Translations under genes and position numbers: made by a program | Shown: positions 8,973 to 20,271 of the stretch, in pieces | How the letters are laid out: every line of letters begins with the position of its first letter | Numbering within the stretch: the stretch's first letter is position 1 | Notes under the pieces: model-generated | Told to the model about the DNA's origin: nothing | What the model saw: only the letters and a program-made list of their open reading frames with translations | The model's database searches: none | Source of the DNA: Deltaproteobacteria bacterium | Lineage (GTDB): Bacteria > Bdellovibrionota > Bdellovibrionia > Bdellovibrionales > JAMPXM01 | Assembly: GCA_017302795.1 (NCBI GenBank) | Contig: JAFLCB010000001.1 | Coordinates: 372,001-436,000 of the forward strand | Reading direction: 5' to 3' | DNA length: 64,000 bases

Positions 8973-10526
8973 ATGATCAATTGGGATGAATTTGAGCATA
9001 TACACGTCATCCGAAAGCTAAAACAGATTCTGGCTTCGTGGTGGAATGTCGACACGATTTTCACCGACGAGCGTGGATATCTGAAGGGCTTCGACAAAGC
9101 TAAAATGACTTACGCGAATCCCGGTGTTGCGATGCTGATGCAAAAAGACGCGGCCATGGACAACCTTGCAGAAGTTGTCAGCAAGACCTTGGAAGATTTG
9201 CGTCTTTCTGAAAATCGATACTCGCTTCGCCGCTGGGATCTAGCTGGTTTCGACATCGGCATCTTTCCTATTTGGATAGACAACGATCTCGTCGGCGCAG
9301 TAATAGGACTTGGCTTTCTAAAAGACAATTCTCCACAGCGAGCTGCGGAAATCCGCGAACACATGGCCGCTTTCGGCGCTTCGAACGAAGCGATTGAACT
9401 TACGCTAGCAAAAACACGCACTCTTGACGACGACGACCGGTCGAAACTTGTTTCGTTGGTCGAACTGACATCGCAAGAAATCGTGACTCTGCATTTAGAA
9501 ATCACTCAGCGCGAAGATCGAATCCGCGAACTGAACAAAGAACTTGGTAGCCGCTACAAATACGATTCAATGATTGGTAAATCGAAACCAATGCAGTCGC
9601 TTTACTCGCTTTTGGATAAAATCCAAGGCGCCGATTCGACAGTGCTAGTTCAGGGTGACAACGGTACAGGTAAAGAATTGATCGCCAAAGCGATCCACTA
9701 CAATTCTTTGCGCAAAGACAAAGCCTTCATTATCGCGAACTGCGGTGCAATTCCAGAAGGTCTGCTTGAAAGCGAATTGTTCGGGCACATGAAGGGTTCT
9801 TTCACTGGCGCGATCGCGACGAAGAAAGGTCTTTTCGAAGTTGCTGACAAAGGGACGTTCTTCCTAGACGAGATTGGTGAAATGCGGCCGCAGATGCAGG
9901 TTCGTCTGCTGCGTGTTCTGCAGGAAGGAACCTTCACACCGGTTGGCTCGACAGAGCCAAAAAAAGTTGACGTTCGGGTGATCGCGGCTACAAACCGAAA
10001 CCTTCGCGAGATGGTAGAAAAAGGTGAGTTCCGTGAAGATTTATACTATCGATTGAATGTTATCAATATTCGCGTTCCGCCGCTTCGCGAGCGCAAAGAA
10101 GATATTCCTCTTTTGGCAGAACATTTCCTTGGCAAAGAATCTGAAAAAGGTCAGCCGAAAAAAGTTTTGACGAAGCGTGCACTAGAAAAACTTTATGATT
10201 ACCCATGGCCAGGTAACGTTCGCGAATTGCAAAACGAAGTCGAACGAATTGTGGTTTTGTCCGGAACTGAAAACAAACTAACTGCAGACATGCTTTCGCC
10301 AAAGATCTTAGAAGTTGGCGAAAAAGCGAAAGTGCAGGGCGCACGCGTCCACGGAAAATTGAAAGATGCACTTGAAGAGCTCGAACGCGAGATGATCAAA
10401 GAAGGTCTTCGACGAACAGGCTGGAACAAGTCGAAACTTGCAAAAGAGCTAGGAATTAGCCGTGCCGGTTTGATTATGAAAGTTGAAAAATACGGTCTCG
10501 ATAAGCGCCGAATGGCAAAAATTTAG
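8973..10526 (+). CDS. Sigma-54-dependent transcriptional activator with a PocR-like sensory domain
   Basis: This is a bacterial enhancer-binding protein of 517 residues. Residues 1-170 resemble a PocR-type ligand-sensing module (FDIGIFPIWIDNDLVGAVI) rather than a phospho-receiver; no receiver Asp pattern is seen. A short coiled linker (about 170-195) leads into the AAA+ domain, with Walker A GDNGTGKE near 228, the sigma-54 contact loop as GSFTGA (usual GAFTGA) near 275, and Walker B GTFFLDEIGE near 293. A Fis-type helix-turn-helix ends the protein (WNKSKLAKELGISRAGL). An AGGGGAG ribosome-binding site precedes the ATG. The signal sensed and the target promoters are unknown. No TGGCAC-N5-TTGC promoter was evident in the gaps I read. 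Confidence 0.9.
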   Translation: MINWDEFEHIHVIRKLKQILASWWNVDTIFTDERGYLKGFDKAKMTYANPGVAMLMQKDAAMDNLAEVVSKTLEDLRLSENRYSLRRWDLAGFDIGIFPIWIDNDLVGAVIGLGFLKDNSPQRAAEIREHMAAFGASNEAIELTLAKTRTLDDDDRSKLVSLVELTSQEIVTLHLEITQREDRIRELNKELGSRYKYDSMIGKSKPMQSLYSLLDKIQGADSTVLVQGDNGTGKELIAKAIHYNSLRKDKAFIIANCGAIPEGLLESELFGHMKGSFTGAIATKKGLFEVADKGTFFLDEIGEMRPQMQVRLLRVLQEGTFTPVGSTEPKKVDVRVIAATNRNLREMVEKGEFREDLYYRLNVINIRVPPLRERKEDIPLLAEHFLGKESEKGQPKKVLTKRALEKLYDYPWPGNVRELQNEVERIVVLSGTENKLTADMLSPKILEVGEKAKVQGARVHGKLKDALEELEREMIKEGLRRTGWNKSKLAKELGISRAGLIMKVEKYGLDKRRMAKI

Positions 10527-10698
10527 GCCCGGGGAGGCTGGGGTTTTTCTAAAAGAAATTCCCTAGTGAACTGGGATTGATCGTAGGGGCCCAAACCGGG
10601 CCCACCCTGTAATTCAATCAAGTAATTAATAATACTCAGCTTTTTCTGTGCCAAAAGTGGTCCGACTAACGGCCCAGGTCTTGCCTTTATTGCGGCTC

Positions 10699-11847
10699 AT
10701 GAACCGTACGACTTGGAATCCAGAATGGTCTGCAGCAATTGAACGCATCACCACACTTGTGGAAGCGATGTTTGCTTGTCGTGCAAAGTTTCGAACACTT
10801 GATTCGTTTCTCGAACCACTCAACCGAAGCGCTTATCTCGAGCAAGATCTCGTATTTTTAGATTCTACTCTATTTGAAGTACCTGAAATGATTCGCGCCG
10901 TTGTCCCCGGCCAATTCGCGTTTCCGCTTCGCGTGCGTCGTGCAGGTGCTGGCCCAAAAGATGTGACTTTGGTTGGCGTTGCAACAATCGAAGGCCTCGC
11001 GGCAAGCGACGATACCCGCCTAAAACAAATCGCCGAGTTTCTGCACTTGGCTGTCGAATCGAGGCTTGATGCTTTCGAGCGTCTGTTGGATATCGAGCAA
11101 CGAGAGCAGCAACTGCTTCTCGAACAGGAAATGCGGGAAAGTAAGAAAGTGGTGCGACTCTTTCCTCGCGATTTGGGGCCACGTGATTTAGGACTACGCA
11201 AATCCGATCACGATTATTCGCAGGAGACCGTTTCGTCATTCAATTTGCCTGCGTCGGAAGCCTCGCTCGAGATCACAAAACCTTTGTTACTAGTCAATGA
11301 TCATCTTGCAAGAAAGTCCTCCAACCTGATTAAGGTGATGCAAGAAAAAATCGCGATCGAGATTTTCAATAAGTCAGGTCATTGGTTTTTTGTCGGCTTA
11401 AACGACCTCTCAGACGAATCGTTTCGGACAGCTCATTCCTTTCGTGAGCTTGGCCGAATGATAGTTTTCATTTCGAATCTCGCGGAAGTTTCAATTGAAA
11501 AGCAGCTTCGCCTTGCAGAGGTTTTTGCCGCAACAAAAGGCGAATTAGACGCGCCGTCGGTCATTGCCTTTGTCGACGAAGACCCGAAGGCCCTGATCGC
11601 ACGGGGAACAGTACTGCCGCATCTTCTTGACGCGATGGCGATGATCCATGTGCCAGCAGCGCTTGCACTCAGCACTTCGAGCGGCGCACCCATCGCTGGA
11701 CACCGAACATTTGGTGTCCTGCTGCGTGAAATTACAGCGACTCTGCGCGGCCGTCCCGCAAGTCGTGAGGGCTTTGAAGGTGCCTCGATTATTCCCCTCA
11801 ACGGACGCTGGCAACACGACGATAGTCCAAACCCGACGTTCCATTGA
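10699..11847 (+). CDS. Uncharacterised protein, GAF-like N-terminus and possible degenerate AAA+ C-terminus
   Basis: I do not recognise a named family. Residues 1-110 have the look of a GAF fold, ending in a long Glu/Gln-rich helix (FERLLDIEQREQQLLLEQEM). The second half contains LGRMIVFISNLAEVSIEKQL and a 'P.VIAFVDED...LIARG...HLLDAM' pattern. This resembles the Walker B, sensor and arginine-finger order of sigma-54 AAA+ domains but lacks a Walker A loop. It follows the sigma-54 activator gene in the same direction, so a modulatory role is possible but inferred. The start is uncertain: the ATG at 10699 is used, a GTG at 10648 would add 17 residues, and neither has a clear ribosome-binding site. 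Confidence 0.6.
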   Translation: MNRTTWNPEWSAAIERITTLVEAMFACRAKFRTLDSFLEPLNRSAYLEQDLVFLDSTLFEVPEMIRAVVPGQFAFPLRVRRAGAGPKDVTLVGVATIEGLAASDDTRLKQIAEFLHLAVESRLDAFERLLDIEQREQQLLLEQEMRESKKVVRLFPRDLGPRDLGLRKSDHDYSQETVSSFNLPASEASLEITKPLLLVNDHLARKSSNLIKVMQEKIAIEIFNKSGHWFFVGLNDLSDESFRTAHSFRELGRMIVFISNLAEVSIEKQLRLAEVFAATKGELDAPSVIAFVDEDPKALIARGTVLPHLLDAMAMIHVPAALALSTSSGAPIAGHRTFGVLLREITATLRGRPASREGFEGASIIPLNGRWQHDDSPNPTFH

Positions 11848-11851
11848 TTGA

Positions 11852-12964
11852 TTGCTGAATCGGTGGCACGATTCTGAAGTGATCAATACAACTAGCACCA
11901 CCACCGCCGGCAATCCCGTTACTCCTGAACTCAACCACGAAATTCAGTCATTTCTTGGTTCGCTGATGGGAGCGGGAAAATTCGAAATCCATCCCCTAGC
12001 TGGTGATGCTTCTGCTCGGCGGTACTTCCGCGTCATAGCGCACGACGAGTCTTGGGTTTTGATGCTCTGGGACCCGTTCATCGACGACGGTCGCTATCCT
12101 TTTTTAAGTGTCAGGGCTCACTTCGAAAAACATGGCGTCGCGGTACCCAAGGTCATCGGTATGCGTCCCGAAAAGGGTTTGGTTCTTCTTGAGGACCTAG
12201 GCGATCTCACCTTAGAAAGAAAATTCTGGGAAAATCAGAACCAGGCATCAGCGATGCCGTACTATCGACAGACAATCGACGAACTTTTGAAAATGCACTA
12301 CGACGCATCCTTCGATCGGTCATCTCCATGCGTGGCGTTTACTGTTGAATTCGACACCGCCAAGCTTCTTTGGGAAATGAATTATGGACGAGAGCACCTT
12401 CTTGAGGGCCTTTGCCAAGTGAGGCTTTCGGAAGTTGAGAAAAAGGAACTTCAGACTGTTTTCACGACCATTTGTGAAACCTTGCACCGCGAACCGAAGT
12501 TTATTGCTCATCGGGATTTTCATTCTCGCAACGTAATGCTGAAACACGGACGAGTGCGAGTGATCGACTTTCAAGACGCTAGAATGGGCTCGATCCAATA
12601 CGATCTTGTCAGCCTTTTGCGGGATTCTTACGTGGATCTCAATGATGATTCGATTCAAGAACTTCTAAGCTATTATCTCGCCGGCCGCGATGAAAGGTCG
12701 AGACTGAACCCTGGTATACTCCCCTCGATTTCGCGCGATCAGTTTAACCATGTCTTTGAAGTTCAGACGGTCCAACGGTGCTTTAAAGCCTGCGGCAGTT
12801 TTGCGAGTTTCAAAATGCTTCGCAACGACACTAGGTATTTGAAGTACCTTGCGCCAACACTGAAAACTGTACGCCGCAGTCTTGGTTCGTTTCCGCAGTA
12901 CTCAGCATTTTTTAAAATCCTTGAAAGCAATGGCGTCTTTGATCAGTCATTTGACGCAAATTAG
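11852..12964 (+). CDS. amgK: Aminoglycoside-phosphotransferase-fold sugar kinase, AmgK-like
   Basis: This is a probable anomeric kinase that phosphorylates free N-acetylmuramate or N-acetylglucosamine at C1 during peptidoglycan recycling. Visible features are GDASARRYFRV (nucleotide-binding N-lobe), VLLEDLGD, the catalytic loop HRDFHSRNVML and the metal-binding VIDFQDARMG, in the order of the phosphotransferase family. It lies eight bases before a MurU-like nucleotidyltransferase gene, the same pairing as amgK-murU in Pseudomonas; this context supports the assignment more than the fold does. The start is unclear: the TTG at 11852 gives 370 residues, while a GTG at 11879 gives 361 and fits family length better. 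Other small-molecule kinases of this fold remain possible. Confidence 0.75.
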   Translation: MLNRWHDSEVINTTSTTTAGNPVTPELNHEIQSFLGSLMGAGKFEIHPLAGDASARRYFRVIAHDESWVLMLWDPFIDDGRYPFLSVRAHFEKHGVAVPKVIGMRPEKGLVLLEDLGDLTLERKFWENQNQASAMPYYRQTIDELLKMHYDASFDRSSPCVAFTVEFDTAKLLWEMNYGREHLLEGLCQVRLSEVEKKELQTVFTTICETLHREPKFIAHRDFHSRNVMLKHGRVRVIDFQDARMGSIQYDLVSLLRDSYVDLNDDSIQELLSYYLAGRDERSRLNPGILPSISRDQFNHVFEVQTVQRCFKACGSFASFKMLRNDTRYLKYLAPTLKTVRRSLGSFPQYSAFFKILESNGVFDQSFDAN

Positions 12965-12972
12965 GACATTCT

Positions 12973-13992
12973 ATGCAGGCATTTCTACTGGCGGCAGGAT
13001 TGGGTACGCGACTTCGGCCGATCACAGACGTCTATGCTAAACCAGCGGTTCCTTTTTTAAATGTCCCACTTCTCTTTTGGTCACTCGAATTAGTTCAACA
13101 GTTCAAGCCGTCCTCCTACGTGATCAACCTCCATCACCTTCCTCAAACGGTGCAAAAGCTGATGACGTCGCCAGCAGTCGCAGATCTAAAAACCTCTTGG
13201 TCCCTAGAAGCCGAAGCACCGCTAGGAAGCGGCGGAGCTCTGACGTTTGCAGGAAGCCGTGGACTACTGACTGACGAAGAGTTGATCGTTGCAAATGCCG
13301 ATGAAATTATTCTTCCGATTGATAAGATGGCTACCGCAAGGCTTTTAGAAAACCATAGACGGGGCGGAGCCATCGCTACTTTACTGACAATGAAGCATCC
13401 CGATGCGGGAACAAAGTTCGGAGGAGTTTGGCACGACGGTGCGGGATCGGTATTTGGCTTTGGACGCGATCGCGCTCTTTATCCGAAAGCAAAGGGTGCA
13501 CTTCACTATGTTGGACTCATTCTATTGAACAAAAGAGTTCTTAACTACCTACCCAAAACAGGAGAGAGCAATCTTTTGTATGACGGTTTGCTTTCAGCCA
13601 TTCAGGCAGGAGAAAAGGTCACGGCGCACGAAGAGGAATTATTTTGGCAAGAAACCGGCAACGCACATGATTTTCTTGAAGCCACTTCAGCGGCACTTTC
13701 GCTCCTTTCGCCTCTGGTCCACACAGACGCATCGGTCTTAGCGAAAAAAATCGTCTACAAGTATGCGCCCCTGGGAACGAGATACTGGCAGTCTCTATCG
13801 GGCGCGCAAATGTTGATATCCCCGATTGCTGATGGGTCGCTGAAAGAATCAGAAATCTGTGCCCACCTGGAAAAAGAAAAGGCGTTTGCCGTGATCGGTG
13901 CAAACGCCAAGATTAGATTTTCTATTTCAAACAGCGTCGTGCTTCCAAACGGTCTTGTAAATGAACCGTTGGAAGCTGAAATCGCTTACTGA
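12973..13992 (+). CDS. murU: Sugar-1-phosphate nucleotidyltransferase, MurU-like
   Basis: This NTP-transferase-fold enzyme joins a sugar-1-phosphate to UTP or another NTP. The N-terminal signature is complete (AFLLAAGLGTRLRPITD, then AKPAVPFLNVP), with LGSGGAL and a NADE metal site (VANADEIILPID). Next to the AmgK-like gene it is best read as the MurU step, making UDP-MurNAc from MurNAc-1-phosphate. At 339 residues it is about 110 longer than typical MurU. The extra C-terminal part (from about residue 235) has a pattern compatible with a left-handed beta-helix or acyltransferase-like tail, so a mannose- or glucose-1-phosphate transferase is the main alternative. It ends two bases from the convergent gene on the minus strand. 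Confidence 0.7.
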   Translation: MQAFLLAAGLGTRLRPITDVYAKPAVPFLNVPLLFWSLELVQQFKPSSYVINLHHLPQTVQKLMTSPAVADLKTSWSLEAEAPLGSGGALTFAGSRGLLTDEELIVANADEIILPIDKMATARLLENHRRGGAIATLLTMKHPDAGTKFGGVWHDGAGSVFGFGRDRALYPKAKGALHYVGLILLNKRVLNYLPKTGESNLLYDGLLSAIQAGEKVTAHEEELFWQETGNAHDFLEATSAALSLLSPLVHTDASVLAKKIVYKYAPLGTRYWQSLSGAQMLISPIADGSLKESEICAHLEKEKAFAVIGANAKIRFSISNSVVLPNGLVNEPLEAEIAY

Positions 13993-13994
13993 CA

Positions 13995-15023
13995 TCAGTC
14001 TTTCAAGAATTGGTTTTCTTGGTCGCGCGCTTTGTAGCGACGAGTGACCATTTCAAAAATGTCGTCGCCTGAAACGCCGATCGTGTCGCTTCCAAGTTTC
14101 TTCGTTAAGCCAGAAATTTTTGGCTTTGCTCGATTGCGGTTTCGTGGATCGCGCCCCCAAGGATCTATGCCCGCACCGTAACCGCCCTCACCGCCGCCCG
14201 CGCCATCGCTGGCAAGGCCGCGACCGCCGCCGCCACCGCCGGATCCACCTAGCTGCGACATTTGCTTAAATTTCTCAGCTTGTTTTGCGGCAAACTGTTT
14301 TCCCATATTGGCGGCCTGTGCAGCTTCTGCTGCCGTCATTCCCATTGCCAACATATCGGATTCAGAACCGCTACCTGATTTCGATAAATCAAATGTTCGA
14401 CCGTCAGGCGTCGTCATTGATTTTCCATCTGGCGATAGCTTCACGCCTGACTTTTCCAGTTCTGTTCTTAGCCTCGCAACATCGCGTGCGATTGTCTGAG
14501 GCGTTGTTCCCGCAGGCAGCCCTCCGCCCGTGCCAGCAGTTCCGGCGCCGCCAGTGCCAGTCGTTCCATCTGGATTGATCGGGTTACCCCACTGGTCTGT
14601 TCCGCCCGTGCTGCCGCTCGAGTTATCGTAGTAGGGATCGTAGTTGGACATTTGCTTGCCCGCAGCTCCCGACTGACCGGAGGCGCCTCCGAGAAGGCTG
14701 GCGGCGGCACCTGCGAGGCCCACCAGCGGACAAGCCCAGCAGCCGGCGCAATAAGGTTTCATACAAACGCCCATGTACATTCCGGCGGCGGCGATGTTGA
14801 CGGCGGCACCAATTAACTGAGTGTTACTTGTGCTTCGGCCGGATTCCGCCGCATTTCCCCCACCACCAGGGGTGATGTACTGGGGCTGCGAAGACGTCGG
14901 CTGTGCAGATGTCGCCTGCCTTGCCGGCGCGGGAGTGGCCCCGGTGAATGCAAACGCTTGTGTCGCCAAAAACAAAACCGCTACCGGAAGCGCGATCAAA
15001 ATCTGTTTACTCATATTTCTCAT
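13995..15023 (-). CDS. Secreted Gly-rich protein with a C-terminal motif shared with its neighbour (A)
   Basis: No named family is recognised. An N-terminal signal peptide (ILIALPVAVLFLATQAFAF) is followed by a Pro/Ser/Thr stretch, a hydrophobic Gly/Ala segment with four Cys (MYMGVCMKPYCAGCWACPL, about residues 83-102), a Gly/Thr-rich linker, a charged region and a poly-Gly run. The last 30 residues contain DDIFEMVTRRYKARDQENQF. The adjacent upstream gene product ends with the matching SIWEKATRQYQEQIQKQN, so the two proteins share a C-terminal element. AGGAAGAG precedes the ATG at 15023. It lies 13 bases after the neighbour's stop, in one operon. A surface or secretion-related role is inferred from the signal peptide and the TadG-like gene upstream. 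Confidence 0.75.
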   Translation of the reverse strand: MRNMSKQILIALPVAVLFLATQAFAFTGATPAPARQATSAQPTSSQPQYITPGGGGNAAESGRSTSNTQLIGAAVNIAAAGMYMGVCMKPYCAGCWACPLVGLAGAAASLLGGASGQSGAAGKQMSNYDPYYDNSSGSTGGTDQWGNPINPDGTTGTGGAGTAGTGGGLPAGTTPQTIARDVARLRTELEKSGVKLSPDGKSMTTPDGRTFDLSKSGSGSESDMLAMGMTAAEAAQAANMGKQFAAKQAEKFKQMSQLGGSGGGGGGRGLASDGAGGGEGGYGAGIDPWGRDPRNRNRAKPKISGLTKKLGSDTIGVSGDDIFEMVTRRYKARDQENQFLKD

Positions 15024-15036
15024 TTTGCTCTTCCTC

Positions 15037-16647
15037 TCACTTATCCAAGATCACATTTTGCTTTTGAATCTGCTCTTGGTACTGGCGCGTAGCTTTTTCC
15101 CAAATCGAAGGCCCCATGGGACCCGTTATTCCATCGACAGACTTCACGCTCATGCCTGCAATGCCGCGCGTTTTGTATTTTGAGCCCGGCAAAAACTTTC
15201 TCAGATTGAATTTGTCCATGAGTCCGCCAAGCCCGGCTGATCCATTGTTTCGTGCGAGACCGCCACCGCCGCCTCCACCCGAACTGCCAAGACCACCACC
15301 CTGACCGCCCGATGTTCCAGTGATCGCACTGCGAGGATCTCCGAAACCACCAGCGCCGCCGTCGTCGCCACCAAGCGATCCAAGCGCTCCACCGCCCGGA
15401 GGTCCGCCGCCTCCAGGGCTAAAGCCACTGTCGCCGTTTGACGCATTTTGTTTCGACGCAAATGGATCGACAGTGTTGCCGTCTGTTCCTGCGTCGTCGC
15501 CAGTTCCTAAGAAAGGAGTCGCCGAGCTATTTCCAATTCCATTTCCGGGACCGTTGGTTGTCGCTCCGCCACCTGCAACCGCACCGGGATTGAAGCCGGC
15601 GCACATCGGTGATTTTGCGTTCGATTCTCGCGAGCAAAAACAGGTAAGCGACTGGTTGTTCGGATCGCTACAATCGGTTGGATTTGGAAGTGCGATCGGC
15701 GAGAATGTTGGCACTGGTTGATTGGCAAAGGCAGACGCTTCTGCCGCACACTGGTTGTTCTGCACGATGCCGGCGCCATGTTGCATAGCGCCCATCATCA
15801 TCGCCATGACTTGGCCCGAGTACCCGCTACACTGTCCGGCGGCCGCTTTTGATTTTGTTGCCGCCGTCTGACACTTTTCTGCAGCAGTCTCCAGGGCCGC
15901 GGCACCGACGGTTGCAGCCGCTGCTTGGGTACGAAGTTGCGCAGCTGCCGCAGAGAACTGTGCCGCCGAAGCTCCACACCGTTTTGTACATTGTCCGATC
16001 ATGATACCGCAGGCAGCGCCTTTGATCCCGTTGATGGCGGTCATTGCCTTGGAAAGATCGGCCTGCTTTCGACATTGCTCGGCCATGTTTTTTCCAGCAG
16101 ATGTAATTTGCCCCGCAAGTCCAACCATCTGATTCACCATCATCGTGAACATTGCAGCTTCACCGGCGTTCATCCCGCCGGTTCCAGGTGTTAAACATGC
16201 AGTTGAAGTTGTCGATTTCGTTGCTGAACAGTTTGCTGCTTCAGCATCTTCCGGTCCCTGCGGTGGAGCGGGGCTTCCGGTATTTGTATAGGGGCACATT
16301 GCTTCCAATGAATCTGGAGCAGCGCTAACAGCTCCGCCGGCAGCTGCGCCGCCTGCTGCGGCACCTGCTGCACCACCTGCTTGACCACCTTCATCGGCAG
16401 AGGCTGCTTGTTGCAACCCTCCACAGCCGCGGGTGTCACCCGACGCCATACAAGCACCATATCGCTGCGAGTTTGAAAGCGAGGTATTGTTCATATCGGC
16501 AACCGCTTGATTTGGATCTGTGCCTTGATATCGATTTTGCCAGCAAGAGGCCGCAATACAATCGCCTGCTGAATTTGCAAAGGCATCGGCAGAAAACGAA
16601 ATCAATGCTGCGATCGAAAAAAAGACCGCCAAAATTTGTCGAGGCAT
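15037..16647 (-). CDS. Secreted Ala/Gly-rich, Cys-containing protein with the shared C-terminal motif (B)
   Basis: This protein has 536 residues from the ATG at 16647. That start is chosen because GGGAGGG lies seven bases upstream and a signal peptide follows at once (MPRQILAVFF...ADAFA); an earlier ATG at 16680 lacks both. The mature part contains 15-20 scattered Cys, an Ala-rich predicted helical region (about residues 215-290, including MTAINGIKGAACGIMIGQC), Pro/Gly-rich linkers and a poly-Gly run. Its C-terminus, SIWEKATRQYQEQIQKQN, matches that of the next gene. No family is recognised. The 207-bp gap before it, after the TadG-like gene, holds the palindrome at 16822. The Cys content suggests disulfides in the periplasm or outside the cell. 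Confidence 0.75.
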   Translation of the reverse strand: MPRQILAVFFSIAALISFSADAFANSAGDCIAASCWQNRYQGTDPNQAVADMNNTSLSNSQRYGACMASGDTRGCGGLQQAASADEGGQAGGAAGAAAGGAAAGGAVSAAPDSLEAMCPYTNTGSPAPPQGPEDAEAANCSATKSTTSTACLTPGTGGMNAGEAAMFTMMVNQMVGLAGQITSAGKNMAEQCRKQADLSKAMTAINGIKGAACGIMIGQCTKRCGASAAQFSAAAAQLRTQAAAATVGAAALETAAEKCQTAATKSKAAAGQCSGYSGQVMAMMMGAMQHGAGIVQNNQCAAEASAFANQPVPTFSPIALPNPTDCSDPNNQSLTCFCSRESNAKSPMCAGFNPGAVAGGGATTNGPGNGIGNSSATPFLGTGDDAGTDGNTVDPFASKQNASNGDSGFSPGGGGPPGGGALGSLGGDDGGAGGFGDPRSAITGTSGGQGGGLGSSGGGGGGGLARNNGSAGLGGLMDKFNLRKFLPGSKYKTRGIAGMSVKSVDGITGPMGPSIWEKATRQYQEQIQKQNVILDK

Positions 16648-16821
16648 GTGATGCCCTCCCATACAGATATTGTCGGACAAAATCCGTCACTTCTAAATAG
16701 GCAAGTGCCATTTTTCGTAAAAAAAACGGCTATTTAGAACGCTTTTCCCGTCTAACAAAAACACGTGTGTCAGACCGCTAGACAGGTGTCGAAGAAACAG
16801 TGAGTGATTATTTCGAAAGAT

Positions 16822-16836
16822 GTCTCGTAGTGAGAC
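16822..16836. promoter_or_regulatory. Palindromic motif, copy 2 (GTCTCG-TAG-TGAGAC)
   Basis: This is the most symmetrical of the five copies, extendable to ATGTCTC-N5-GAGACAT. It lies 174 bp upstream of the secreted Cys/Gly-rich gene (minus strand) and just past the stop of the TadG-like gene. Confidence 0.45.
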
Positions 16837-16854
16837 ATACGGACATCAGCCGAA

Positions 16855-19113
16855 CTAGAATTGGCTATCGTCACCAGGAGCATTTTTGATCGTTTGCGCT
16901 CCAACTCCGGCGCCGCCAATTTGCCACGGGCCGTTCAAATGATCGCGAGAAATCAAGCGCACCGAATACCCAACTCGACCGCCAACCGTGCATTTGCCAG
17001 GAATCATCACTCCGGGAACTGCTTCTCCGCCATCTTGGCATTTTCCGAAACGATCGGTGGGAAAAGTAAAAGTCGTCACTCGGTGCGGGGCCCAGCCGTT
17101 CAGCAAATGCTTCCAGCTTCGCACCAGCCAAAACAAGACCGGACGCAGAGTCGGATCGACGCCAGAGTCAGTTACATTTGGTGACATCGCTGCTTCGATT
17201 TGCGTTTCTATATCGGAGGCTCGCATATCGGCGACGTCTTCACGCGCACCGAGATCCCCAACTGGTCTTTGCGATCCGCTTCCATAGCGGGCCGGGTTGT
17301 TTCGTGCGGGCGTTACATAGTTTTCATCGGCAGCGGGATCTATCGAATAGTAAGTAAGATCAAAAAGATCCGGTGCGACGGCCGCCATCTCAACTTTGCG
17401 GAAGTGCTGCAGTGGTGCCGGCATTGCGCCAGCCGCGGCCTGCGCGACGGCATCAAAAGCCAGCGAGTCCCCGGAATTTGGAAACTGTCCAAAGTTGTAA
17501 AACCAATTTAATCGAAGCCGTGGGTCTCCTGGTCCACCGGCAGCAACATTCGGCACTATTGTACGAAAATAGTTTCTCGCCGCTGCTTGCGCCCTGCTGG
17601 ATCTCATTCCCAAGCGGTCACCGGGAAAGCGCGAAAAGTTCGGAATCGTGAATGCGGAGTACTGGTAGCCTCCAGCGCTGGGAACAAGTCGCGGCGACGT
17701 CATCGGGTCCGTGCGATCGGCCATTTGCGACGGATGCGGGTTCATGTCCCCAGCACCGGGCGCCGCTGCTGGTGGAACAGGCGAAACAGAGGTTTGTGCC
17801 GCACGATCCCATCTTTTCCCATACCAGGGGCCAATGCGCCCGCCAAACGGCTGCGCAAAGGCGCGCGCCTCCAAAGTCGAGGGCTGGCCGAAAGGAGCAA
17901 ACGGTTTTCGTGAACGGGTCGTCGCTTTGACACCGACATAGGACATGCACCACGGATTTTTTTCGAAGCCTAAAGAAGAATGAAAGTCATCGTTCCGATT
18001 GGACGGTTCTCCCCTCACCATACTACGCAATGTCGCTTGGGGCGGCGGATCCCAGATATTGATGTTTCCACCTGCCTGGGTGCCGATCAAATCGAATTCC
18101 AATTGAAACTTGATTGAGAAGTTACAAGAGGTGCCCGAAATTCCTAGCAGCGCGAAATACATCCCGGGCCCAGTTAGAATTTCTGGAATCGTGTTTTCCC
18201 CTGGGCGCGATCCGCCGTCGCAACCGCCTAAGGTATGGCTGTTAAGAATCTGAACACTGTTTGGATCAAAGCCCGCCCGATTACTTTCCGTCAGATTTTT
18301 TTCGATCGTGAGCAAAACACCTTGGCGAATTGAGTTTCCATCGCGATCTAGTGGATCTGACGAAACCAAATTTTCTGTGAGTTTCTTTATCGCGCGTTTT
18401 TTATACGAGATCGAATATTTGTAGTTCGTCATTATTGCAGCAACAAATGCCCAGCTCAGTGGCGACGCCTCCGCGCAGCTTAACGTATAATTTCCTTGGC
18501 TCATTCGGGCCTGTGCTAACGCAAAGCCATTATACCCTCCGGTTGCCGGAGTAGACGGGACGTTAGGCGCCGCGATCGATGTAGAAACCCAATTGTAGGG
18601 ATGCCAACAATAGTTTTCATTGGGCGGCAAACCTGGGGTGAGCCTCGCAAATTCCCACCAGTAGGGATTTGCCAAACAGGCCACCGGAACTTCTTCCTGT
18701 GGTGCCGCTCCGCCGGACGAATAACGCTTAACTACCTCTCCCGGATCTGTTCCCGGTGCAGAAACGTGAGGCGGCGGCTGCTGAACACCCGATCCACCGT
18801 TTCGACCGATGGTTCCAAGAACCCAATAGCGCCAGGCGAGAAGTTTGTAGTCTTGGCGTATTTGGTAATTGAGATGAGCGATCTCATTTAAAATTTCAGC
18901 CTGCTTTTGTGCGGCGTAATAGGCGCCAAGATCCACAGAGTTCTGCAAGTTGATTTTGTCGTGGACCAAAAGTCCGATGTTGATAACCATCGCGAAAAAC
19001 ACGAACAAAACTTGAAACACCAGAGCAAGGAAAATGGACATCTGGCCAAGTTCATTCGCACCAAATTTATTCGTTAGGCGGCGTTTAGAGTTCGGCTGGC
19101 CACGGTCGGACAT
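16855..19113 (-). CDS. TadG-like membrane-anchored pilus-assembly-type protein
   Basis: The protein has 752 residues with one N-terminal membrane segment, about residues 25-47 (GQMSIFLALVFQVLFVFFAM), followed by INIGLLVHDKINLQNSVDLG and then AYYAAQKQAEILNEI. This N-terminus, with GQxS before the helix and a long following helix, is the hallmark of TadE/TadG-type proteins of Flp/Tad secretion loci. The large periplasmic part is rich in Pro, Gly, Asn and Trp with scattered Cys, and I recognise no domain in it. No tadA, tadB, tadC or rcpA gene lies nearby. The ATG at 19113 is preferred; an in-frame TTG at 19131 is the alternative, and neither has a strong ribosome-binding site. Palindromic motifs lie on both sides of the gene (16822 and 19188). 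Confidence 0.75.
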   Translation of the reverse strand: MSDRGQPNSKRRLTNKFGANELGQMSIFLALVFQVLFVFFAMVINIGLLVHDKINLQNSVDLGAYYAAQKQAEILNEIAHLNYQIRQDYKLLAWRYWVLGTIGRNGGSGVQQPPPHVSAPGTDPGEVVKRYSSGGAAPQEEVPVACLANPYWWEFARLTPGLPPNENYCWHPYNWVSTSIAAPNVPSTPATGGYNGFALAQARMSQGNYTLSCAEASPLSWAFVAAIMTNYKYSISYKKRAIKKLTENLVSSDPLDRDGNSIRQGVLLTIEKNLTESNRAGFDPNSVQILNSHTLGGCDGGSRPGENTIPEILTGPGMYFALLGISGTSCNFSIKFQLEFDLIGTQAGGNINIWDPPPQATLRSMVRGEPSNRNDDFHSSLGFEKNPWCMSYVGVKATTRSRKPFAPFGQPSTLEARAFAQPFGGRIGPWYGKRWDRAAQTSVSPVPPAAAPGAGDMNPHPSQMADRTDPMTSPRLVPSAGGYQYSAFTIPNFSRFPGDRLGMRSSRAQAAARNYFRTIVPNVAAGGPGDPRLRLNWFYNFGQFPNSGDSLAFDAVAQAAAGAMPAPLQHFRKVEMAAVAPDLFDLTYYSIDPAADENYVTPARNNPARYGSGSQRPVGDLGAREDVADMRASDIETQIEAAMSPNVTDSGVDPTLRPVLFWLVRSWKHLLNGWAPHRVTTFTFPTDRFGKCQDGGEAVPGVMIPGKCTVGGRVGYSVRLISRDHLNGPWQIGGAGVGAQTIKNAPGDDSQF

Positions 19114-19272: not shown

Positions 19273-20271
19273 ATGGCTGAATCAAATCTTCGCAAACGCC
19301 TAGTACAACCGCTTCTTGTCGCTGCGGCGGTTTTTTTGTGTGTTGTTTTAAGCCCTTTGAAATCTGATGGAGCGACATTATTTGAGGGCTGGTCCAAGGT
19401 CTTGCTGTCCGGTCAGCACGTTGGCTACATCGTTCAGCGCTACGAATTTGACGAGAAGAAAAAAGAATTCCGCGCCATTCACTATATGAAAATGAATGCT
19501 GATGCCGGAGGCCTGACGGACAGCTTGGTGGCCCGCGCAGACGCGACCTTTAAGCCGATCAATTATCAATACACTGGACTAAAGGATGGGAAGCCGATCC
19601 TTATCGACGCTGGCTTTAAGGGCGACAAAATGACGGCTGTCGTGACCGAAGGAAAAGAAAAGAAAACCGTCAACGTGACACTTCCAAAAGGTGCGTTTCT
19701 TTCGACGTTCCTTGGCTACGTGATGCTGCAAGGAAAAGAAGGTCTGAAAAAAGGGATCAAGTACGAATACCAAGGTGTCCTTGAAGAAGCGGCGATCGTT
19801 GCAAAAGGTGAAGCGTACATCGCCGATGAAGAAACCGTTTCTGGTATTGCCGCGTTTCGAATTCTCAACACTGTCAGCGGAAGCAAGTACATTAGCCTGG
19901 CCACTCATAAAGCAGAAGTCCTCGGCACCGTTTCACCAAGTGCCGGCGTGCAAACAGTTTTGGTCAGCACAATGGAAGAAGCGGTGGCGGGTCATGGTTT
20001 AAATTCCGCCGCGGTATCGCAGCTTTTCGGCTCTGTACCGAAAGGAAAAGAAAACGAAGTCTCCAGAAGAAGCATTATGCCCCCTGCGGCGAAGGGCACA
20101 ACGCCGACCAGTCCCAGTGTCACTATTCCTGTAACAGCGGCTTCGCCCACAGTACCGGCTGCGACGACATCAACGCCCTCCACGCCCGCGACAAATACTT
20201 CTGCGCCGATTGGCCCACCAGCGACACCGCCCAACGCAACTCCAACACCGCCACCGACTTCTGGGAAATAA
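19273..20271 (+). CDS. Secreted protein of unknown function, first gene of the permease-nagZ operon
   Basis: No family is assigned with confidence. A signal peptide (QPLLVAAAVFLCVVLSPL) is followed by an all-beta-looking domain (about residues 30-245) beginning FEGWSKVLLSGQHVGYIVQR. The pattern resembles periplasmic proteins that bind or sense ligands, such as DUF3108-like proteins, but this is only a visual likeness. The last 60 residues are a Pro/Thr/Ala-rich, low-complexity tail. The stop codon touches the ATG of the ABC permease gene, so translation is probably coupled and the protein may act with that transporter. AAGGTG lies upstream of the ATG. Confidence 0.7.
   Translation: MAESNLRKRLVQPLLVAAAVFLCVVLSPLKSDGATLFEGWSKVLLSGQHVGYIVQRYEFDEKKKEFRAIHYMKMNADAGGLTDSLVARADATFKPINYQYTGLKDGKPILIDAGFKGDKMTAVVTEGKEKKTVNVTLPKGAFLSTFLGYVMLQGKEGLKKGIKYEYQGVLEEAAIVAKGEAYIADEETVSGIAAFRILNTVSGSKYISLATHKAEVLGTVSPSAGVQTVLVSTMEEAVAGHGLNSAAVSQLFGSVPKGKENEVSRRSIMPPAAKGTTPTSPSVTIPVTAASPTVPAATTSTPSTPATNTSAPIGPPATPPNATPTPPPTSGK

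Follow-up and report, generated by a model that had tools for sequence, protein, structure and literature searches.

What do a pilus-type membrane protein and two glycine-rich exported proteins that end alike do together in a predatory bacterial lineage? Three consecutive reverse-strand genes raise this question in a 64,000-nucleotide stretch of DNA (contig JAFLCB010000001.1, positions 372,001 to 436,000; hereafter the window) from the 4.23 Mb genome of a Deltaproteobacteria bacterium; those of its close relatives that have names are Bdellovibrionales assembled from metagenomes. The first encodes a TadG-like protein of 752 amino acids (16855..19113, likely start at 19113), with an N-terminal Tad transmembrane, pilin-like helix and a large exported domain. 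The second and third encode protein B (15037..16647; 536 amino acids, likeliest start at 16647, MPRQIL...) and protein A (13995..15023; 342 amino acids, likely start at 15023), each with a Sec-type signal sequence, as judged by eye. A preliminary description, made from the sequence alone, had the coordinates and reading frames of all three right, with start codons that shift slightly here. The answer that we favor, and to which we give an even chance, is that the locus represents a cassette for the tip of the bacterium's own Tad pilus (Kil-like, type IVb), detached from the tad locus itself, in which the common C-terminal tail would act as a docking module and the whole would play a role in prey contact.

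The argument begins with the tail, which the preliminary description had placed behind poly-Gly runs in both proteins. The tails it quoted are exactly in place: runs of 6-7 Gly precede a module that occupies approximately the last 60 codons of B (15037..15225, reverse strand; FNLRKFLPGSKYKTRGIAGMSVKSVDGITGPMGPSIWEKATRQYQEQIQKQNVILDK) and the last 50 of A (13995..14150, reverse strand; KPKISGLTKKLGSDTIGVSGDDIFEMVTRRYKARDQENQFLKD). Taken as a pair, the two window proteins do not resemble each other beyond chance (BLASTP, A 263-342 against B 458-535, 27.5% over 80 amino acids, E 4.4), and it is family profiles that back their homology. Specifically, hhalign of 62 B-type against 45 A-type tails from relatives gave a probability of 94.3 (E 1.1e-7, score 40.9), a score reached by none of 200 column shuffles (best 13.9) nor by the reversed profile (9.3). 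Further, at E(Z=1)<1e-3, a hidden Markov model of the B tail picked up 39 of the 45 A proteins and none of 225 shuffled sequences. The module is longer than previously described, comprising some 50 amino acids near the stop codon, 'F(D/N)LxxFLPGg ... RGLAG ... GITGp.g.(S/N)I(W/F)eKvs.rYq', with an F(D/N)LxxFLPGg segment, RGLAG, a GITGp-type turn and an (S/N)I(W/F)xxvxxRY helix, in that order; both A and B carry a C-terminal module of this length that ends in (S/N)I(W/F)xxvxxRY. Some A proteins (in loci L016, L017 and L046) retain the first segment, which supports the common descent of the entire module. Hence, by sequence comparison, the homology of the A and B tails, and the tail family as such, are well supported.

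Upstream of the tail, the two proteins are built differently. A is 17.5% Gly and has 4 Cys, while B is 17.0% Gly and 17.2% Ala and has 18 Cys, with a Cys-containing helical core (approximately 132-308), a disordered Gly-rich linker (approximately 355-475) and a tail that includes a short helix (515-528). The structural model of B has this same order of helical core, disordered Gly linker and short tail helix at a predicted local distance difference test score (pLDDT) of 63.6, and against the PDB it had no match at E<=0.001, the best being to helical proteins at E 0.33. Pfam gave no match to A and none above cut-off to B, and across 29 B-family proteins it returned only isolated Hpt and GTP-eEF1A_C matches, in one member each. 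Among NCBIfam models, A matched none and B only one unrelated enzyme model (E 0.53, model cut-off 496 bits), and a search of PDB sequences with the tail alignment profile found nothing. The two genes are separated by 13 nt (8 nt between the orthologues in Bdellovibrio bacteriovorus HD100), from which we consider that they are probably carried on one transcript; the spacing between the TadG-like gene and B is 207 nt.

The identity of the TadG-like protein is the second pillar of the argument. The preliminary description had seen a TadE/TadG-type anchor upstream of the two glycine-rich proteins, and the protein is of the TadG type, matching PF13400 at 29.1 bits against a curated cut-off of 22.3. 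This domain is present exactly once per genome in all 10 genomes examined, each time at the TadG-like gene and above cut-off. The statement that no other tad genes are present holds within the window, where the open reading frames (ORFs) near the TadG-like gene include no TadE or TadF gene, and fails genome-wide: a tad locus sits on a different contig (G000:C5) and encodes a Flp1-like pilin, RcpC/CpaB, a secretin, a ParA-T2SSE ATPase and a T2SSF protein, together with two more ORFs that look TadE/TadF-like by eye and have no Pfam match, while the CpaB of the Tad pilus occurs in 96 of 98 relatives. The single copy of PF13400, combined with a Tad locus elsewhere, indicates that the locus studied here supplies the genome's only TadG-type protein, and the TadG assignment is, on sequence grounds, well supported. 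The earlier notion of a surface-appendage locus fits, but this is no stand-alone small appendage, given a Tad pilus locus at another site of the genome.

The predicted structure of the TadG-like protein has no significant counterpart in the PDB. Its AlphaFold2 (AF2) model (pLDDT 83.6, predicted template modeling score 0.88) has a 79-residue N-terminal helix (4-82), a 58-residue second helix (175-232) and a beta-rich part. Foldseek against the PDB gave no match at E<=0.001, a second structural comparison reached a best Z of 4.8 (108 residues, root-mean-square deviation 3.8 A) to chains that are seemingly unrelated, and PDB sequences searched with the TadG alignment profile yielded nothing. In words, which is how the two were compared, the model resembles the published description of KilN4 (PMC12075869; this and the other reports are cited from their available portions). 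In Myxococcus, the tips of Kil pili are built on the TadG-like KilN, and a tip has been predicted for B. bacteriovorus (PMC12075869); TadG has been stated to be missing from the Kil set (PMC8460266). By that description, the likeness to the KilL/M/N tips of Myxococcus xanthus would cover a TadG-like minor pilin of large size, in which the long N-terminal helix is joined by another long helix and by an exported domain rich in beta structure, as well as a TadG-like gene located away from much of the machinery and a predatory host (PMC12075869). Two differences stand out, however: the locus studied here has no genes of the KilL (TadE) or KilM (TadF) type adjacent to it, and it has two Gly-rich, tail-bearing exported proteins, which are not mentioned for Kil in the available part of that report (PMC12075869), on whose description the likeness rests. 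Relative to the TadG of Tad/Flp pili, the protein shares the PF13400 domain above its curated cut-off and the single copy in a genome with a Tad pilus, but it is encoded far from the tad locus and has a conserved C-terminal 'GGRxGYSVKxxS...LGG...LNPPP' region.

How widely do the tail and the TadG-like protein occur, and do they travel together? Distribution was surveyed within the phylum, in 98 relatives and in 289 phylum genomes (107 inside the class, 182 outside). Single-sequence searches understate the spread (A in 77 and B in 40 of the 98 relatives), for which reason we used tail profiles, namely A1 (30 rows, including the window's own two tails) and A4 (11 divergent out-of-class tails). 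The preliminary description had proposed a search of relatives for the motif, and A1 places it on many other exported proteins, in 91 of the 98 relatives and at 1 to 11 proteins per genome with a match; in the window genome there are exactly two, A and B. Over the phylum, A1 matched 102 of 107 genomes inside the class; outside it, A1 matched 17 of 182, most of them weakly, and the out-of-class matches inspected look genuine ('LNFRGPA.GGKKGSIFQMISNRY', L164-L169). A4 reversed this pattern, matching 109 of 182 genomes outside the class and 10 of 107 inside. The tail module thus spans the phylum, as two forms that have diverged from each other. The TadG-like protein is found in 97 of the 98 relatives and in 271 of the 289 phylum genomes (105/107 in the class, 166/182 outside).

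As an alternative, the tail could be a general export or outer-surface sorting signal for an unknown envelope machine, carried by diverse surface effectors and linked to TadG only secondarily. In established C-terminal sorting systems (PEP-CTERM, GlyGly-CTERM, type IX CTD), a short C-terminal module is found on unlike exported proteins, and the tail is similar in being short, conserved and placed behind a flexible linker on proteins that are otherwise unlike. Its position behind a disordered linker on up to 11 proteins per genome, the existence of tail clusters with no TadG nearby and its weak association with TadG outside the class all speak for a sorting role. Yet the A and B tails differ from such modules in having, by eye, no hydrophobic membrane segment, neither protein matched a curated C-terminal sorting (CTERM) family, and no processing enzyme was recognized. 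Further, two tail proteins in the window genome, both at this locus, are few for a general signal, and within the class the tail genes lie mostly beside TadG. We regard a general sorting signal as unlikely; the assembly or export tag of the preliminary description agrees with the occurrence of the tail on many other exported proteins and, as a role, remains a proposal.

Gene order was examined in 86 loci from the 98 relatives (in most of the 12 left out, the contig stopped next to TadG, or the TadG match was incomplete or absent), of which 10 were dropped for having less than 4.5 kb downstream of the TadG-like gene, leaving 76. At least one tail gene lies downstream on the same strand in 49 of these 76 loci and at least two in 35, such that the three genes, whose cohesion the preliminary description had offered as a check, are kept together in many relatives. 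One further locus (G041) has a tail ORF solely upstream of the TadG-like gene. Extra copies also occur, with two tandem B genes in G012 (L094 6235-9200) and three tail genes in the cassette of G028. Synteny alone is modest evidence, given that the genes flanking the locus (a divergent gene at 19273, permeases, a nucleotidyltransferase and an APH-type kinase) are likewise conserved in several relatives. This conservation is what favors a simpler explanation, namely that B and A belong among the ordinary adhesive or matrix proteins rich in Gly and that their adjacency to TadG merely reflects a conserved chromosomal neighborhood. Better evidence than plain synteny comes from two sources that oppose this explanation. 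First, the tail pair adjoins the TadG-like gene in convergent orientation in 2 more of the 76 loci (G019 and G029), so the adjacency survives inversion. Second, the TadG-B-A cassette recurs with divergent tails outside the class, in family f14 (L158), and the tail itself is conserved far past the neighborhood. We consider the neighborhood explanation improbable.

When would these proteins be made? Upstream of B there is a FliA-like promoter region (16648..16717, reverse strand), with TTAGAAGTGACGGATTTTGTCCGACA at -49 from the B start. Within 70 bp 5' of their starts, 23 of the 25 primary B genes and 6 of the 7 paralogues have a FliA-like -10 element, and 19 and 4 of them, respectively, also a -35. 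Of 1481 control ORF starts, 194 have the -10 and 64 both elements. This looser pattern was set post hoc, after the sequences had been seen, and related sequences are not independent, which makes the Fisher p of 2e-20 for the enrichment too small. A strict pattern, which occurs in 86 of 20000 random windows, was found at 13 of the 32 B genes; upstream of flp, the pilin gene, it was absent in both L154 and L156. In HD100, Pbd0149 carries a FliA motif and has robust attack-phase activity (PMC12622784). Taken at face value, FliA-like promoters upstream of B genes could place the tail proteins in the flagellar regulon, in service of the flagellum or its sheath, and tail paralogues do adjoin flgF/flgG-type genes in three loci (L111, L113 and L116). 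But in Bdellovibrio the TAD operon (PMC5430801) and many attack-phase genes (PMC12622784) are likewise FliA-driven, and the cassette carries a TadG-type protein and no flagellar one, which leaves a flagellar role very improbable.

The link to published phenotypes depends on mapping the genes to HD100. A 101-codon ORF at 96873-97178 of G038, taken to be the HD100 genome, puts c.127 at 97052, where the published Bd0108 c.127 is at 97050 (PMC11323537), and the B orthologue has GGT as its codon 256, in agreement with the published Bd0149 G256V (PMC11323537), while codon 256 is not Gly in the HD100 TadG-like and A proteins (first starts). From the agreement of coordinates and codon, we take B to be Bd0149; as its neighbors, the TadG-like protein and A would be Bd0148 and Bd0150. 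Bd0148 may already have been named as a tip component in PMC12075869. A Bd0150::tn mutant did not attach to, kill or round prey, and a Bd0470 TadC::tn mutant failed in the same way (PMC6561027). The gene after Bd0150 is on the opposite strand, which makes a polar effect of the insertion unlikely. In addition, bd0149 G256V was found in biofilm-forming host-independent strains, an outcome that the authors credit to it jointly with bd2152 (PMC11323537). Literature searches on Bd0147-Bd0151, Bdellovibrio TadG, minor pilins and C-terminal sorting signals, supplements excluded, yielded no entry describing the tail or the cassette.

From these elements, a working model of the pilus-tip cassette can be put together, for which homology, single copy, Tad genes elsewhere, shared tail, gene order and promoter type were computed here, and the HD100 mutant and promoter phenotypes come from papers. 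As the genome's only TadG-type minor pilin, the TadG-like protein would probably provide the domain exposed at the pilus tip. Its partners, B and A, would be expressed from a FliA (attack-phase) promoter and exported by Sec, each combining an N-terminal region (in B, the Cys-rich helical core) with a long tether rich in Gly and, last, the conserved tail ending in a short helix. Through the tail, B and A would most likely dock on one and the same partner, be it the TadG-type tip or some other component of the invasive pole, and the complex could then serve prey attachment at the start of predation. The tip position of the TadG-like protein, the docking by the tail and the docking partner are the steps that we infer.

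Several observations weigh against this model. In 29 aligned proteins, the hydrophobic stretch that comes after an invariant Gly lacks the Glu+5 of canonical prepilins. Of the out-of-class genomes, 103 of the 166 that have the TadG-like protein carry the tail, as do 6 of the 16 that do not (Fisher p 0.065), a weak association that indicates no strict dependence of the tail on TadG. No tail gene is found near TadG in 24 of the 76 loci, and three B-type genes at 488-492 kb of HD100 adjoin flagellar genes with no TadG nearby. The strict FliA pattern was not found upstream of the TadG-like gene in the window, L108 or L109. Finally, deletions of flp1, flp2 and flp4 abolish predation while attachment is kept (PMC5430801), a result at odds both with the tadC::tn phenotype (PMC6561027) and with an attachment role for the Tad pilus.

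A non-pilin component at a pilus tip would have a parallel in the PilY1-type adhesins of type IVa pili, which are exported and proposed to act at the tip in attachment. The proposed placement of exported non-pilin proteins at a tip for attachment is alike, but no sequence similarity to them appeared in Pfam or NCBIfam, and the pilus is of another class. More tentatively, we propose, as a possible if rather doubtful extension, that an undescribed phylum-wide C-terminal docking module loads variable, Gly-tethered exported proteins onto a single TadG-type tip, such that predators could exchange prey-contact proteins on one conserved tip. For prey recognition and grip by Bdellovibrio, the pilus-tip model would tie three uncharacterized genes, bd0148-bd0150, to the Tad pilus via a single-copy TadG; one of the three is needed for attachment in a published screen (PMC6561027). 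The tail is a short module whose removal or exchange in a laboratory strain would put docking to a direct test, and it allows candidate prey-contact proteins to be listed in any genome of the phylum.

Beyond these points, several minor features were seen. Cys-rich paralogues of the B type, with nearly identical tails, form tandem clusters of two or three (L116 6113-10573; L113 8661-11958; L111 8406-11450) that lie between a small peroxidase-like gene and lysC/flagellar (flgF/flgG-type) genes, with FliA-like promoters upstream of several cluster members, and another locus (L097) has a row of three tail proteins, one of more than 730 amino acids. Within the window genome's tad locus (L156), a 756-amino-acid ORF (10268-12538) fuses a ParA/MinD-type domain (TadZ-like) to a T2SSE ATPase (TadA-like), and L154 holds a similar ORF of 739 amino acids. 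After the tad ATPase genes of L156, an ORF at 13473-15173 encodes a protein that combines DUF6531 with an RHS repeat, and a similar 550-amino-acid ORF has the corresponding place in L154. In the window, the gene at 19273-20271, divergent from the TadG-like gene, encodes an exported protein, family not assigned, and is kept beside the TadG-like gene in HD100 and other relatives. On the other side, an APH-type kinase and nucleotidyltransferase pair (11852-13992), presumably AmgK/MurU-like, borders the cassette in several relatives.

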